A DNA stretch of 64,000 bases, taken from contig JACPEH010000011.1 of the NCBI GenBank assembly GCA_016183655.1, forward strand, positions 62,001 through 126,000, written 5' to 3'. The position numbers and the translations under genes were made by a program. Below the pieces are notes generated by a model, which was not told the origin of the DNA, ran no database searches, and saw only the letters and a program-made list of their open reading frames with translations. The stretch is from Rhodocyclales bacterium (GTDB taxonomy: Bacteria > Pseudomonadota > Gammaproteobacteria > Burkholderiales > Rhodocyclaceae). Below, piece by piece: positions 26,910 to 59,100 of the stretch (the first letter of the stretch is position 1; every line of letters starts with the position of its first letter).

Positions 26910-27488
26910 ATGAGTTCCCATTCCGACAACACTGCGCGCGACCTCGTCGCTCCCCGTCTCCACTGCCCCGCCTGCGACGACGGCCCGCTCGGGCAGGAGA
27001 CCGGCGCCGACTACGATTGCCGCGCCTTCCGCGATGCGCTCGGCAGCTTCGCGACCGGCATCGCCGTCGTCACCGCCTGCGCGCCGGACGGCGAATTCGT
27101 CGGGCTGACCGTCAACTCCTTCAACTCGGTATCGCTCGATCCGCCGCTCGTGCTGTGGAGCCTCGACCTCGGCTCGCCGAACCTGGAAGCTTTCCGCAGC
27201 GCCAGCCACTACGTCGTGAACATCCTCGCCGCCGACCAGGCCGAGGTGTCGCAACGCTTCGCGACGCGCATCCCGGACCGTTTCGGCGACCTGCAGCTGT
27301 GCATCGGCGTCGGCGGCGCGCCGCTGCTGCACGGCTGCTGCGCCTGGTTCGAGTGCGCCAACGAGACCCGGCATCCGGGCGGCGACCACCTGATCTTCGT
27401 CGGCCGCGTCGAGCGCTTCTCGCACGACCCCGCCCGCCTCCCCCTCGTTTACCACGCCGGCCGCTACCGCAACCTGGCGCGGGATTGA
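26910..27488 (+). CDS. Flavin reductase-like FMN-binding protein
   Basis: A 192-residue protein with an N-terminal 30-residue extension containing CPACDDG. The flavin-reductase-like domain follows (ALGSFATGIAVVTA, GLTVNSFNSVSLDPPLVLWSL, HYVVNILAADQAEVSQRFA, HLIFVGRVERFSHD). Such proteins supply reduced flavin to monooxygenases or are NADH:FMN reductases. Its stop codon lies inside the -35 element of the following tRNA promoter, so it directly abuts the tRNA-Gly unit. Confidence 0.85.
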   Translation: MSSHSDNTARDLVAPRLHCPACDDGPLGQETGADYDCRAFRDALGSFATGIAVVTACAPDGEFVGLTVNSFNSVSLDPPLVLWSLDLGSPNLEAFRSASHYVVNILAADQAEVSQRFATRIPDRFGDLQLCIGVGGAPLLHGCCAWFECANETRHPGGDHLIFVGRVERFSHDPARLPLVYHAGRYRNLARD

Positions 27489-27513
27489 ACGCCCCTGCGG
27501 ATCGGCATAGAAT
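27485..27513 (+). promoter_or_regulatory. Sigma70 promoter of the split tRNA-Gly gene
   Basis: TTGAAC (27485-27490) and TAGAAT (27508-27513), each five of six, are spaced by 17 bases. The expected start, around 27520, is about 25 bases before the tRNA 5' end at 27545. The primary transcript therefore begins with exon 1, then the intron, then exon 2. Confidence 0.75.
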
Positions 27514-27544
27514 GCGACCTCCTGCACCTTCCCGGGCGCAACGA

Positions 27545-27583
27545 GCGGGCGTCGTATAATGGTAATACCCTAGCTTCCCAAGC
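27545..27583 (+). tRNA. tRNA-Gly(CCC), 5' exon (interrupted gene)
   Basis: Thirty-nine bases give the acceptor strand GCGGGCG, a D arm (GTAT/ATAC), the 5' anticodon strand CTAGC, the loop TTCCCAA with anticodon CCC, and the first two bases (GC) of the 3' anticodon strand. The group II intron begins immediately after. Joined to 30222-30256 it makes a complete 74-nt tRNA: anticodon stem CTAGC/GCTAG, T arm GTGGG/CCCAT, acceptor GCGGGCG/CGCCCGC, discriminator T and encoded CCA. All stems pair across the junction, which fixes the exon ends to the base. Confidence 0.95.
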
Positions 27584-27908
27584 GTGCGACGTGAGTCGGA
27601 GGTTAGCTGCAACCTTGCACAACGCCGATCCCATTGCGGGATCACCACCATTGCGGTGGATAGTGTGCAAAACGTAGCAGTACCAAATCTGTGCCATTGC
27701 GGCATGGAACGGCGTAAGCCGTATAAGTAATCGTTCTGCCTTCCGCAAGGGAGTGACAGAACCCGGGGTTCAGCCCTCGGTAGTCTAGGAGCGGTGCGTC
27801 ACTGGCAACGGTGGGGTGCTAAGCGCTCTGACAATGTAGCCACCTTACGGGGTATGTCATATCCCGTGAGGGGTCTGGCATGATTTCGGGAGTTGCACCC
27901 GAATGAGG

Positions 27909-28037
27909 CGCTAGGCTGGGTTGGATGGTTAACGTAAGTGAACCGCTATTAAACGTCGTCAAGCTTGATGAGCCAAAGGCAACTTGTAGTATCGGGCTCA
28001 GCCAAAATGGCATGTGATCGGTTGTTTGCTTGCTTGG
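27909..28037 (+). other. EBS2 and EBS1 exon-binding sites of the intron
   Basis: EBS2 = GCTAGG at 27909-27914 and EBS1 = GCTTGG at 28032-28037. They are the exact complements of two hexamers of exon 1 separated by three bases. The EBS2-before-EBS1 order and the terminal-loop position of EBS1 (stem GTTTGC/GCAAAC at 28024-28029 and 28039-28044) are as in known group II introns. Confidence 0.8.
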
Positions 28038-28368
28038 TGCAAACACGCTGACACGGGTATCACCGGCGAAAAGGCGGAACCTTCCCAATCCTGTTACTTG
28101 TACGGAACACGGTAAGCCCAATGCGGGGTCTGGCCAGTCTGGCAGACAAGGATAATCGCAAGGTTATCTGATGCCGTAGGGGGTAGAGGATGGTGGAAAA
28201 AGCGAATGCCTCTCTGTAATGGAGGGGATAGGGGGTAAATGCCCTGACGCGAAAGCGTGCTAACTTCCATCAGGTGATCTGTCGCAAGACAGGTCTGTAA
28301 ATCGCATCCGGCGGGGATGATGTACTATCCCCGCAAGGGGCGAGTGCGTCTTTCCTTCCGGGGACAGA

Positions 28369-28442
28369 GCGGGTGTAGTTCAATGGTAGAACTTCTGCTT
28401 CCCAAGCAGATAGCGTGGGTTCGATTCCCATCACCCGCTCCA
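28369..28442 (+). tRNA. tRNA-Gly(CCC), complete copy inside the intron
   Basis: An intact 74-base tRNA with encoded CCA: acceptor GCGGGTG/CACCCGC, D stem GTTC/GAAC, anticodon stem TCTGC/GCAGA, loop TTCCCAA (anticodon CCC), T arm GTGGG/CCCAT with TTCGATT loop, discriminator T. It is the same isoacceptor as the interrupted gene but differs in acceptor, D and anticodon stems, so it is not a recent duplicate. It lies in domain IV, 17 bases before the intron-protein start. Its IBS2-equivalent (TTCTGC) mismatches EBS2 at two positions while IBS1 is unchanged. No separate strong promoter is visible, so it is probably cut from the intron transcript. Confidence 0.95.
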
Positions 28443-28459
28443 TTCAACCGGAGGTTGAT

Positions 28460-30127
28460 ATGGACGCAAGTCAGCATGATTGTGATGTCGCCTCCACAAC
28501 TTGGCAGTCTTGGCACGACGTTTCGTGGGTCAAGGTTTATCAAGTTGTCGCGAGGCTACAGACAAGAATTGCGAAGGCAGCAAAAGCAGGGGAATGGCGG
28601 AAAGTTCGCGCCCTGCAGAGACTCCTGACCAAATCCACCGGTGCGAAAGCACTGGCTGTGAGGAGGGTAACGGAGAATCAAGGCCGGAAAACTCCAGGAG
28701 TGGATAAGCAAACCTGGGGCACGCCGGACGCGAAGTGGAAAGCGGTACTTGATCTCGGTAGCAAGAGATATAAACCGTTACCGCTACGTCGCATCTACAT
28801 CCCGAAAGCAAATGGTGACAAACGCCCACTCGGCATACCCACCATGCGTGATCGTGCGATGCAAGCGCTGCACTTGCTGGCGCTGGACCCCGTCGCCGAA
28901 ACGATCGGTGATCCCCATTCCTACGGTTTTCGACGTGAGCGCTCGACAGCGGATGCCATCGAACAAGTGCGCAATGTGCTTGGGAGAAAAGCTTCGCCCA
29001 AATGGGTGCTGGAAGGGGATATCAAAGGTTGCTTCGACAACATCAGCCACGACTGGCTGGTCGCCAATGTCTGCATGGACAAAGGCACTCTTCGGAAGTG
29101 GTTGAAAGCGGGTTTCATCGAAACGGGAAAGCTTTTCCCGACGCAAGCAGGCACGCCACAGGGAGGCATCATCTCCCCGGTTCTGGCGAACTTGGCACTG
29201 GATGGGCTGCAGCACGAGCTAACCACACTGTTCCGAACAGTGCGGGACGCACGTGCGGCAAAGGTCAATCTAGTGCGCTACGCGGACGACTTCATCATCA
29301 CGGGTAGCTCGAAAGAGTATCTGGAAGAGAAGGTCAAACCCTTGGTGGAGAAATTCCTCGCTACTCGGGGCCTCGTCCTCTCGGAGAAGAAAACCAAAAT
29401 CACACCAGTGACAGAGGGCTTCGACTTCTTGGGGTGGAATGTCAGGTATTTCAATCGAATGCTGATAACCCAGCCATCGAAGAAAAATGCCAAATCGTTC
29501 TTGGGGAAAATCCGCGACCTGCTGCGAGAAAGAAAGGCGGCCAGACAGATTGAGGTGATCGAGAAACTGACCCCGGTAATACGGGGGTGGGCCAACTATC
29601 ATCGAAGTCAGATGGCATCCCAGACGTTTGCAAGATGCGACCATCAAATCTGGCAAGCACTGTGGCGCTGGGCGTGTCGCCGTCATCCGAACAAGGGGAA
29701 GCGGTGGATCAAACAGCGTTACTTCAAGTGCCTCAAGGGGCGCGACTGGCTTTTTGCGGATCAGGATAAGTTGCTGCCAACCTTGGCGGGGTACCGGAAA
29801 CGGCCCCACACCAAGATCATGGCTGACGCGAATCCATACGATCCATCGTTCGACGGGTACTTCTCCAAACGGCTTGCGCAGCGCATGGACAAGACGCTCG
29901 AAGGACGGCGCAAGCTTCGCTGGTTGTGGTGGTGGCAGGAAGGTCTCTGCCCTGCTTGCGACCAGAAGATCACGAGAGATACTGGGTGGCACTTGCACCA
30001 CATAATCAAGCGATCAGAACGAGGTTCGGACAAGCTGACCAATCTGGTTTTGCTGCATCCGAATTGCCATAAGCAGCACCATGTTCTTGAGAATCACGGC
30101 CCTGCCGGCATTTCTATGTTCAAGTAG
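28460..30127 (+). CDS. ltrA: Group II intron-encoded protein (reverse transcriptase-maturase-HNH)
   Basis: A 555-residue multifunctional protein that assists splicing and drives retrohoming. The start at 28460 follows GGAGG; an in-frame ATG at 28415 lies within the cargo tRNA and is rejected. RT blocks include KRPLGIPTMRDRAMQ, YGFRRERSTADAIEQV, QGGIISPVLANLALD and the catalytic NLVRYADDFIITG (YADD, about 272-275). The maturase (X) domain contains RGWANYHR. A DNA-binding region is followed by an HNH endonuclease: CPACDQKI, HLHHIIKRSERG, NLVLLHPNCHKQHH (about 497-541). All motifs are intact, so the element may be active. Confidence 0.97.
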   Translation: MDASQHDCDVASTTWQSWHDVSWVKVYQVVARLQTRIAKAAKAGEWRKVRALQRLLTKSTGAKALAVRRVTENQGRKTPGVDKQTWGTPDAKWKAVLDLGSKRYKPLPLRRIYIPKANGDKRPLGIPTMRDRAMQALHLLALDPVAETIGDPHSYGFRRERSTADAIEQVRNVLGRKASPKWVLEGDIKGCFDNISHDWLVANVCMDKGTLRKWLKAGFIETGKLFPTQAGTPQGGIISPVLANLALDGLQHELTTLFRTVRDARAAKVNLVRYADDFIITGSSKEYLEEKVKPLVEKFLATRGLVLSEKKTKITPVTEGFDFLGWNVRYFNRMLITQPSKKNAKSFLGKIRDLLRERKAARQIEVIEKLTPVIRGWANYHRSQMASQTFARCDHQIWQALWRWACRRHPNKGKRWIKQRYFKCLKGRDWLFADQDKLLPTLAGYRKRPHTKIMADANPYDPSFDGYFSKRLAQRMDKTLEGRRKLRWLWWWQEGLCPACDQKITRDTGWHLHHIIKRSERGSDKLTNLVLLHPNCHKQHHVLENHGPAGISMFK

Positions 30128-30146
30128 GGATGCTTAAGGGTTGCTT

Positions 30147-30221
30147 GAGCCGTATGCGGGGAAACTTGCACGTACGGTTCTTAGGGGAGGGGGTGGCCGC
30201 GAGGTCGCCTCCTTACCCGCC
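30147..30221 (+). ncRNA. Intron domains V and VI
   Basis: Domain V (30147-30180, 34 nt) begins GAGCCGTATG with the catalytic AGC triad at positions 2-4, a GAAA tetraloop and closing strand ACGGTTC. Domain VI follows: GGGGA...TT(A)CCC with inner stem GGGGGTGGCC/GGTCGCCTCC. The unpaired A at 30215 is the expected lariat branch point. Confidence 0.9.
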
Positions 30222-30256
30222 TAGAGCCGTGGGTTCGATTCCCATCGCCCGCTCCA
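30222..30256 (+). tRNA. tRNA-Gly(CCC), 3' exon (interrupted gene)
   Basis: Begins TAG, completing the 3' anticodon strand GC|TAG. It continues with variable loop AGCC, T arm GTGGG-TTCGATT-CCCAT, acceptor strand CGCCCGC (30246-30252), discriminator T and CCA (30254-30256). It pairs at every position with the 5' exon 2.6 kb upstream. Confidence 0.95.
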
Positions 30257-30468
30257 CCTTCCCAATCTCCCTTCCCTTGCACCGATCCGTAGCCGGCCGT
30301 CGATTTGCCGTTTGTCGGTGCCTGCTGCAGAATCCCCGAGCGACAGACAGTGTTGCTTCCGGCATATCCGTCTGTTCTTTGCTCGGAGGAAGGGAAAATG
30401 CCCGTGAGTTCTCATTGCTTCCCGCAGCCGTCGGCCCGCCGCGGGTAGTCCCGTTGCCGGAAACGAAC

Positions 30469-49587: not shown

Positions 49588-49683
49588 TGGCGGAAGAGAG
49601 TGGGAGTCGAACCCACCAGGGACCGTCTGACGGCCCCTGCCGGTTTTGAAGACCGGCCGCCCCACCGGGGAACGATCTCTTCC
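49588..49683 (-). tRNA. selC: tRNA-Sec (anticodon TCA)
   Basis: A 96-base selenocysteine tRNA including CCA. The extended acceptor stem begins GGAAGAGATCG and ends with CTCTCTTCC-G-CCA. The anticodon arm CGGTC-TTCAAAA-CCGGC has anticodon TCA, decoding UGA. The extra arm is long (AGGGGCCGTCAGACGGTCCCT). It lies just after selB, completing selA-selB-selC for the fdhA UGA codon. Any protein frame through it is spurious. Confidence 0.97.
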
Positions 49684-56167: not shown

Positions 56168-59100
56168 TTAGGCTTTCTCGATGTTGACCAGGAACGCCTT
56201 GTACTCCGGCGTCTGCGTGTTGGCGTCGCCGACGAACGGCGTCAGCGTGTTGGTGATGAAGCCCGGCTTGGTCGCCCCCTTGAAACCGAAGTGGGTGGGG
56301 ATGCCGACCGTATGCACCTTCCTGCCGTCGACGTCGAGTGCCTTGATGCGCTTGGTGACCACCGCCACGCCGCGGATGAAGCCGCGGTTGGAACGGACCT
56401 TGACCCGGTCGCCGGCCTTGATCCCCTTCTCCTGCGCCAGTTCCTCGCCGATCTCCACGAACTGTTCCGGCTGCATGATCGCGTTGATCGTCGACTGCTT
56501 GGTCCAGTAGTGGAAATGCTCGGTCAGGCGGTAGGTCGTCGCCACGTACGGGAAGTCCTTGGCCTTGCCGAACGCCTCCATGTCGCCCTTGTACACGCGG
56601 GCAGCCGGGTTGCTGGTCGCCTTCGGGTTGTTCGGGTGCATCGGGTTCTTGTCGAGCGGCGTCTCGAAGGGCTCGTAATGTTCCGGGAACGGGCCTTCGG
56701 CCATCAGCTCGCGGCTGAACAGGCGGCCGACGCCTTCCGGGTTCATGATGAAGGGCATCACGTTCTCTTCCGGCTTGGCGTCCGGGCGCATGTCGGGGAC
56801 GTCGTTGCCGCCCCAGGCCGTGCCGGTCCAGCGCAGTACCGGCCGCTTCGGATCCCACGGCTTGCCGGCGAGGTCGGCCGAGGCGCGGTTGTACAGGATG
56901 CGCCGGTTGACCGGCCAGGCGAAGCCCCAGTTCAGCGTCTGGCCGAGGCCGGACGGATCGCTCGGGTCGCGCCGCGCCGAGTTGTTGCCGGCCTGCGACC
57001 AGACCCCGCAGTAGATCCAGTTGCCGCAGGTGGTCGAGCCGTCGTCGCGCAGCATGGCGAAGCTCGGAAGCTGGTCGCCGGCCTTCACCAGAACCTTGGT
57101 CGGGTCCTTCGGGTCGAGCACGTCGGCCAGCGCCTTGCCGTTGATCTCGCGCAGCAGCTCCTCGGGCGACGGCTTGGCCGGCTGGGCGTAGGCCCAGGTC
57201 AGCTTCTGGATCGGCTCGGGGAAGGCACCGCCGTCCTTGGCGTACATCTCCTTCAGCTTGAGGAACAGCGCCGCGATGATCTCGGTGTCGTCCTTCGAGT
57301 CGCCCGGGCCGTCCACCGCCTTCCAGCGCCACTGTACGACGCGGCCGGAGTTGGTGAAGGTGCCAGCGTGTTCGGCGAAGAGGTTGGCCGGCAGGCGGAA
57401 GACCTCGGTCGGGATCTGCGCCGGATCGACCGCGTTGAACTCGCCGTACGGCTTCCAGAACTCGGAGGTGTCGGTGGCCAGCGGATCGATGACGACCATG
57501 TACTTCAGCTTCGCCAGCGCGTCGCCGACCTTCTTCTTGTTGGCCACCGAAGCCAGCGGGTTGAAGCCCTGGCAGAAGAAGCCGGTCATCTTGCCTTCGT
57601 ACATGCTGTTGAAGATCGACAGCACGTCGGAGGCGCCGCTGAGCTTCGGCAGGTAGTCGTAGGCGAAATCGTTGTCCTTAGTGGCGTTGTCGCCGTACCA
57701 GGTCTTGCACAGGCTGGTGAACCACTTCGGGAAGTTCTGCGGGAAGTTCATCTGCCCCGGCCGCAAGGCCTTCGGCGTGCGCTTGCCGAGGTAGGTGGCG
57801 CGATCCGGATCGGCATCGGTCGGCGCCGACAGGTAGCCCGGCAGGGTCTGCGCGTAGAGCGCGAAGTCGGTGATGCCCTGCACGTTGGCGTGCCCGCGCA
57901 GCGCGTTGATGCCACCGCCAGCCATGCCCATGTTGCCGAGCAGCAGCTGGATGATCGCCATGCAGCGGATGTTCTGCGAACCGACGGTGTGCTCGGTCCA
58001 GCCCAGCGCGTACAGGTTGGTCATCGTCCGGTCCGGCGCCGCGGTGCTGGCGATGTATTCGCAGACCTTGAGGAAGGCGTCCTTCGGCGTGCCGCAGACC
58101 TTGCTAACGGTCTCCGGCGTGTAGCGCGAATAGTGTTTCTTCAAGAGCTGGAAGACGCAGTTCGGGTCCTGCAAGGTCTCGTCAACCTTGGCGAAACCGT
58201 CCTTGTCGAACTGGTACTTCCAGGTGTCCTTGCCGTAGGCGCGCTTGGCCTCGTCGTAGCCGGAGAAGATGCCGTCCTCGAACTTGAAACCCTCGTCGAT
58301 CAGGAAGGAGGCGTTGGTGTACGCCTTCACGTAATCGTGGTGCAGCTTGTCGTTCGCCAGCAGGTAGTTGATGACGCCGCCGAGGAAGGCGATGTCGGTT
58401 CCCGGACGGATCGGCGCGTAGTAATCCGCGACGGAAGCCGTGCGGTTGAAGCGCGGGTCGACGACGACCAGCTTCGCCTTGCGGTTCTTCTTCGCTTCGA
58501 TCACCCACTTGAAGCCGCAGGGGTGCGCTTCGGCGGGGTTGCCGCCCATGACGAAAACGACGTCGGCGTTCTTGATGTCCACCCAATGGTTGGTCATCGC
58601 ACCACGCCCGAAACTCGGAGCCAGACTGGCCACCGTGGGGGCGTGTCAAATACGCGCTTGCGTATCGAGTGCGGTAATGCCCAGTGCGCGCAGCGTCTTC
58701 ACCGTCAGATAGCCGGCTTCGTTGGAAGCCGCCGACGAGGCGAGGAAGCCGGTGGTCGGCCAACGGTTCACCGTCACGCCGTCCTTGTTCTGCGCGACGA
58801 AGTTCTTGTCGCGATCCGCCTTCATGTGCTTGGCGATGCGCTCGATCGCTTCGTTCCAGGAAATCCGCTTCCACTCGTTTGAACCGGCCTCGCGCACCTC
58901 CGGCCACTTCAGGCGGTTGGCGCTCTGCACCATGTCGCGCAGGCCGGCGCCTTTCGGGCACAGTGTGCCGCGGTTGACGGGGTTATCCGGGTCGCCTTCG
59001 ATGTGGATGATCTCGCCCTGCGAATTCTTCGACTTGTCGCCGGTCGAGTAGATGAGCACGCCGCAGGACACCGAGCAGTACGGACAGATGTTCCGTGTTT

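Follow-up and report, generated by a model that had tools for sequence, protein, structure and literature searches.

The window analysed here, a 64,000-nt stretch of contig JACPEH010000011.1 from a Rhodocyclales bacterium, contains a tRNA-Gly(CCC) gene that is interrupted by a group II intron, and the intron in turn carries a second, whole tRNA-Gly(CCC), which we call the cargo. When joined, the two exons of the host gene form a well-formed tRNA-Gly(CCC) of 74 nt. Moving the joint by one base in either direction disrupts the anticodon loop or stem, and we therefore placed the insertion point in the anticodon stem, between tRNA positions 40 and 41. The intron begins with GTGCGAC, in keeping with the GUGYG rule. 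Its last bases are ACCCGCC, not the AY given as the rule for group II 3′ ends in the available text of PMC4424553; the introns of relatives end in CC, AC or CG (L024). In the predicted fold of domain VI an unpaired A bulges out at 30215, six bases ahead of the last intron base (30221), and is the predicted branch point. The intron-encoded protein has RVT_N, RVT_1, GIIM and HNH domains and scored 368 bits against TIGR04416 (cut-off 300). By domain content this is an ordinary group II intron bearing a reverse transcriptase (RT), except that it ends in CC rather than AY.

The candidate exon-binding sites (EBS) 1 and 2 are complementary to the tRNA-Gly anticodon arm of the exon. EBS1 was found in all 44 five-prime halves compared, as was EBS2 in the form of AAGC plus two bases. 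The loop of the 5′-end hairpin (AGCTGC in the window) was rejected as EBS2 because it is missing in many relatives. In a search for EBS3, no column of the 5′ half tracked the +1 exon base in the three A-exons.

The preliminary description of this locus, made from the sequence alone, had placed a complete, CCA-encoded tRNA-Gly(CCC) in domain IV, 17 bases ahead of the intron protein, and had held that it shares the anticodon of the broken gene without being a fresh duplicate of the exons. ARAGORN, Rfam and the coordinates all agree with the first point: the cargo CCA ends at 28442, 17 nt ahead of the maturase ATG at 28460, and the Rfam matches to domains I–IV and V–VI flank the cargo on either side. 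The cloverleaf, CCC anticodon, T-loop, U73 and encoded CCA are all present. As to the second point, cargo and spliced exon tRNA share 57 of 74 positions and differ at 17, and we rejected a fresh duplication of the exons on that count. One of the differences is the pair 29:41 at the intron target site, which is T-A in the cargo and A-T in the exon (Table 1). This alteration of the cargo at the intron target is a point that the preliminary description missed.

Table 1 Features of the interrupted tRNA-Gly(CCC) gene and its intron; coordinates are those of the window.
Feature	Coordinates	Strand	Evidence or remarks
Sigma-70-like promoter candidate TTGAAC-17-TAGAAT	27485..27513	+	Consensus scan; 5′ of interrupted tRNA
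5′ exon, interrupted tRNA-Gly(CCC)	27545..27583	+	Acceptor 5′ strand through C40
Group II intron	27584..30221	+	Between tRNA positions 40/41; GTGCG 5′ end; Rfam D1-4 and D5-6; junction kept in relatives
Group II D1-D4	27762..27910	+	Rfam RF02012, 107 bits
EBS2 candidate AAGCT	27961..27965	+	Complementary to exon AGCTT (-12 to -8); loop CGTNAAGC in 44/44 five-prime halves compared
EBS1 GCTTGG	28032..28037	+	Complementary to exon CCAAGC (-6 to -1)
Cargo: whole tRNA-Gly(CCC), encoded CCA, domain IV	28369..28442	+	ARAGORN; Rfam tRNA 73.3 bits, E 3.9e-14
Predicted hairpin enclosing maturase ribosome-binding site GGAGG (28450-28454)	28440..28463	+	RNA fold -10.2 kcal/mol, z -2.2
Intron-encoded protein, 555 aa, RT (YADD) / maturase / HNH endonuclease	28460..30127	+	
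Domains V + VI	30145..30221	+	Rfam RF00029, 66.8 bits; RNA fold
3′ exon, interrupted tRNA-Gly(CCC)	30222..30256	+	T41 through encoded CCA

A search of relatives for tRNA-like sequences ahead of the RT gene had been proposed in the preliminary description, and it was fruitful. We scanned with the window protein, one genome per species, and kept the best 80 loci of 432 relatives. In 45 of these 80, ARAGORN found a tRNA-Gly(CCC) just ahead of the maturase, and a script found the full cargo in the same 45, which rules out accidental capture in one strain. Adding the window gave a set of 46 cargos. All 46 have the anticodon CCC and the end TCCA; the spacing from cargo to matched protein start, 11–45 nt overall, equals 17 nt in 29 of them, and spacers like that between cargo and maturase in the window are present in relatives. 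The lineage that targets tRNA-Gly accounts for 51 of the 80 closest relatives, six of which have no intact cargo in the locus: assembly Ns lie within the cargo in L011, just the 3′ end of the cargo, split by other DNA, is present in L024, L034 and L048, and the locus begins inside the protein in L035 and L040. Two laboratory strains, Piscinibacter sakaiensis 201-F6 (L028) and Duganella alba FT9W (L013), are among the intron bearers. In the remaining 29 of the 80 we found neither cargo nor tRNA-Gly exons. Two pairs of differently labelled metagenome-assembled genomes contain identical proteins, namely L011/L012 (Lysobacterales and Rhodocyclaceae) and L046/L054 (Planctomycetota and Proteobacteria), which suggests that these contigs were mis-binned. 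With strict E-value limits, protein relatives were also present in 1439 plasmid and 5 phage records, at identities below 60% except for two plasmid records in the 60–80% band.

The insertion site is fixed as well. The intron junction was identical in all 42 loci in which both exons and the full cargo could be read, with the proviso that the 5′ junction was sought by pattern, so that a shifted insertion site would be missed. Among 399 genomes of the order, the 5′-junction pattern matched five: the window's own, one with a further cargo-bearing locus (G203), one with a broken intron (G137), and two (G433 and G438) that we dismissed as chance matches lying outside any tRNA-Gly. In a tree of 76 proteins (5 of 81 rows were dropped), a branch supported at 100/98 separates the 48 rows of the cargo lineage from the rest. 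Such a tree is also what would be expected if recombination with its target had once given an ancestral intron its tRNA-Gly, and the cargo had since been kept by descent, with no selection for tRNA supply. The intron-less cargo-type genes of other genomes speak for the same history. Two of these, in G298 (L112) and G366 (L113), bear the anticodon arm of known cargos and are possible cargo donors or heirs.

Cargos kept merely by descent are hard to reconcile with how well their stems are maintained. We aligned 43 cargos, 25 of them distinct, leaving out three of 75 nt. Across the distinct cargos 98.3% of cells held standard pairs, compared to 86.6% in shuffles, and 61 cells had changed on both sides of the pair, compared to 21. 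None of 500 shuffles reached the observed pairing, both-side-change cells or covariation score, and slid controls were all lower; the shuffles disregard relatedness, and these figures are to be read as support and not as probabilities. A single non-standard pair occurs in 15 of the 43 cargos, nearly always at 27:43. Among 41 spliced exon tRNAs, 15 show one or two pairs of this kind; we did not accept these as decay, as the same 3′ half (41–43 TTC) occurs in listed uninterrupted genes, where the 3′ halves alone were compared.

The cargo also appears to be the only uninterrupted tRNA-Gly(CCC) in these organisms. In the window genome (88% complete) a pattern for uninterrupted tRNA-Gly(CCC) matched the cargo only, and BLAST found, besides the cargo and the 3′ exon, one tRNA-Gly(UCC). 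Across 49 genomes of relatives two patterns combined gave one uninterrupted tRNA-Gly(CCC) each, after two odd-spaced matches (G007:C54 and G014:C9) had been set aside; variant tRNA genes can escape such patterns, and BLAST covered eight genomes plus G137. The sole match maps to the cargo coordinates in 45 of the 49. In the other four it is a cargo behind an intron 5′ half, followed downstream by other DNA in G023, G033 and G046 and by the first maturase codons in G034, where the remaining maturase is on another contig. Conservation throughout the lineage and the sole uninterrupted CCC copy thus lend support to the earlier proposal that the element supplies the very tRNA it interrupts. Loss of the element may be harmful to the host if, as that proposal has it, splicing is poor.

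We then compared cargos and host genes at the intron target. Of the 42 loci in which both exons and a full cargo were read, 39 have the 13-nt target AGCTTCCCAAGC^T without a mismatch, but just 4 of the 46 cargos retain it. Because the exons, being the insertion site, match by construction, uninterrupted host genes are the fair control, and we used 150 uninterrupted tRNA-Gly(CCC) genes, those listed among the 270 of 399 order genomes that matched; 8 of the 150 were retrieved and examined for an intron. Bases 39–41 read GCT in 139 of these 150 genes but in only 4 of 46 cargos (Fisher test, 8e-28), or 3 of 27 distinct ones (3e-18). T stands at position 41 in 139 of the 150 listed genes and in 5 of the 46 cargos. 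The changes in the cargos are compensatory stem pairs, in which 29:41 goes from A-T to T-A or G-C and, in some, 31:39 is swapped too. Combined pairing with EBS1 and EBS2 favours the exon over the cargo in 39 of 44 loci and the cargo in 3, with no difference in the remaining 2. The predicted resistance at the target site is common, not universal.

The altered 29:41 and 31:39 pairs might instead be the native make-up of the tRNA genes that were captured, with no protective role. A base other than T does occur at position 41 in 11 of the 150 listed genes, of which the 8 fetched for an intron check showed no intron junction, and the cargos that retain the target, four in the set and two from outside it, point the same way. 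However, in L014, L042 and L047 the cargo equals the spliced tRNA of its own host save for the one pair 29:41, and three loci whose exons are of the type TGC..GCA (L009, L046 and L054) carry a cargo of a type different from that exon too. We regard native make-up as an unlikely source of the altered pairs.

Broken introns offer a view of what becomes of the cargo later. In one genus, four of 23 genomes have a cargo-type tRNA as their sole match. In G137 (100% complete) an altered 5′ exon and a few intron bases remain at the native site (L166), and the cargo lies on a separate contig (L165) together with the domain IV hairpin and the first maturase codons; no further maturase was found within that 5-kb stretch, and BLAST of this genome found no second CCC gene, only a UCC gene. 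In G369 (100% complete) one contig (L193) keeps the native upstream flank with an altered 5′ exon, and another contig (L164) holds the cargo with intron nt 663–931 and 2401–2638, maturase residues 1–21 and 505–555, and a 3′ exon with an altered CCA. In neither draft could ordinary cis-splicing join the exons. In both genomes the cargo is intact and is the only CCC tRNA found, and the maturase at its locus is mostly deleted. Cargos that outlast decayed introns and exons, together with the paired cells and both-side changes described above (two count measures of that analysis did not exceed the shuffles), argue against mere descent from a captured tRNA, and we consider that history very improbable. 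G456 and G460 have the identical 74-nt tRNA at the native locus without an intron; the upstream flank is collinear in both and the downstream flank in G460. Their arrangement is consistent with the cargo having replaced the host allele, the direction being unproven.

Taking these results together, we propose that the intron is likely a natural home-and-rescue element, which would home into tRNA-Gly(CCC) and supply a spare that is resistant to insertion; we put the probability of this reading at roughly 78% on the strength of sequence comparisons. The lineage combines a fixed insertion site, a whole copy of the target gene carried inside the element, and alteration of that copy at the target in 42 of 46 cargos. 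The exons and the cargo would be co-transcribed from the host tRNA promoter. A single transcript for exons, cargo and maturase is predicted because the only promoter-like site on the + strand precedes the 5′ exon: the candidate in Table 1 was the sole + strand match in 27400–30400, in scans near chance level (2 matches on both strands compared to 1.4 in shuffles), so that the candidate may have arisen by chance. Release of the cargo from domain IV would fall to RNase P and 3′ trimming, and the mature cargo would decode GGG and so offset what is lost when splicing is slow or fails. Owing to its altered pairs, the rescue copy would be spared insertion by the element's own ribonucleoprotein, and a host that depends on the cargo would be unable to lose the element wholesale.

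The same consensus scan of 27400–30400 found no + strand promoter-like site between exon and cargo, which would also suit a cargo that serves mainly as a processing signal. Here the tRNA fold would draw RNase P and 3′ nucleases and free the maturase mRNA, cleavage would set the balance between splicing and protein making, and tRNA supply would be a by-product. The position of the tRNA end, so often 17 nt from the matched protein start and beside the predicted hairpin that encloses the ribosome-binding site, favours this idea. Any tRNA would do for such a purpose, yet the anticodon is CCC in every cargo, and in G137 and G369 the cargo stays the sole CCC tRNA found despite a mostly deleted maturase. 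We therefore think it improbable that processing is the main role of the cargo.

Several observations weigh against a home-and-rescue element. The cargos are mutually related and the counts are not independent, and many of the genomes are metagenome-assembled or drafts. The full 13-nt target is retained by the cargos of L005, L006, L026 and L036 and, outside the set of 46, by those of G023 and G034, and in L006, L023 and L044 the cargo pairs with EBS1 and EBS2 better than the exon does. Two of five covariation measures were no higher than in shuffles: 7 pairs had changed on both sides (210 of 500 shuffles were as high), and 13 further pair types were present (408 of 500 as high). G137 and G369 belong to the same genus and may reflect shared history. 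Because the exons look sound in the loci checked, splicing may already yield enough tRNA, and the cargo may matter only when splicing lags. Finally, seven of the eight genomes checked have a tRNA-Gly(UCC); wobble could let it read GGG, so that the host might manage without the CCC tRNA.

Cutting within domain IV would leave two intron halves, and part of any splicing may therefore occur in trans. The available text of PMC4424553 gives domain IV as the usual place of the break in natural trans-splicing introns, and states that no bacterial example was on record by 2015. We give even odds to a bolder form of the home-and-rescue proposal, in which the homing-proof copy finally replaces the single-copy tRNA of the host and the element is perhaps the first bacterial group II intron to be routinely spliced in two pieces.

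Integrative elements that target tRNA genes keep the tRNA intact by carrying its 3′ end, the same gene being mended through the att overlap. They resemble the present intron in entering a tRNA gene, and differ in that the intron carries a second whole gene in its own body. The cargo has itself become a site for such elements. In G046 a tyrosine integrase gene (PF00589, PF13356) lies directly after the cargo, and the same contig holds the maturase with a 3′ remnant of the cargo at a distance of about 90 kb. In G023 the parts are likewise separated, here by about 21 kb, and a PF00589 protein is encoded close by. Split cargos of this kind are how integrative elements behave toward tRNA genes. In L123 (14–1885, − strand), L048, L120, L024, L034 and L124 the element is split at the 3′ end of its cargo by inserted DNA that either carries an integrase or is unidentified. 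In Thauera propionica (G023; L120, 1747–1819) the cargo before the insertion lacks the encoded CCA and otherwise equals the host's spliced tRNA.

Other known systems share some of these features. Synthetic home-and-rescue drives carry a recoded, cut-resistant rescue copy. To our knowledge, no spare tRNA accompanies the group I introns of bacterial tRNA genes, nor the chloroplast trnK intron, whose MatK is a degenerate maturase thought to retain a splicing role only. The synthetic drives are closest in logic, with a homing element in an essential gene and a rescue copy, as outlined in PMC7968924, but they are engineered insect CRISPR drives, whereas here we deal with a natural retroelement in a tRNA gene whose homing is predicted only. 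The group I introns (Azoarcus tRNA-Ile, cyanobacterial initiator tRNA), named in the text available from PMC4390854 and PMC3073962, are self-splicing but belong to a different ribozyme class, and the trnK intron shares with the present one the group II type, its place in a tRNA gene and a maturase of its own (PMC4424553, in part). The available portion of PMC7902536 describes tRNA genes inside mitochondrial introns of Ophiostomatales, but no copy of the interrupted tRNA and no altered target. The introns beside groEL in Azotobacter and Pseudomonas, a placement given in the text available from PMC4465626, encode a related protein (about 57% identity) and have group II domains I–IV and V–VI, but they have another target, and we found no tRNA cargo or rescue copy in them; the cargo-less relatives L050 and L062 (Pseudomonas/Azotobacter) lie near an Rfam groES element. 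The same text puts the Azotobacter groEL intron in a subset whose 5′ extremity bears a large insertion. In the window, about 180 nt separate the intron 5′ end from the Rfam domain I match (27584–27762). The preliminary description knew of no group II intron with such a cargo, and our search of the open-access literature, with most subscription journals outside its scope, likewise turned up no bacterial group II intron reported to carry a tRNA. What is new is the cargo and its altered target; the intron type itself is known.

Introns are thought to pay for the interruption of a gene by splicing out. The present lineage seems to have a second way to pay, in that it brings the gene along, usually in a form that its own machinery does not match. 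If this is true, nature has built the logic of the engineered home-and-rescue drive with RNA-guided homing, and a selfish element has a route by which to replace a host tRNA gene. It would also make the locus a test bed for competition between RNase P cutting and group II splicing on one transcript.

Elsewhere in the window, ARAGORN and Rfam found a selenocysteine tRNA at 49588–49683 on the − strand, and a SECIS_3 element lies at 58593–58651 on the same strand, pointing to selenoprotein synthesis in this organism.
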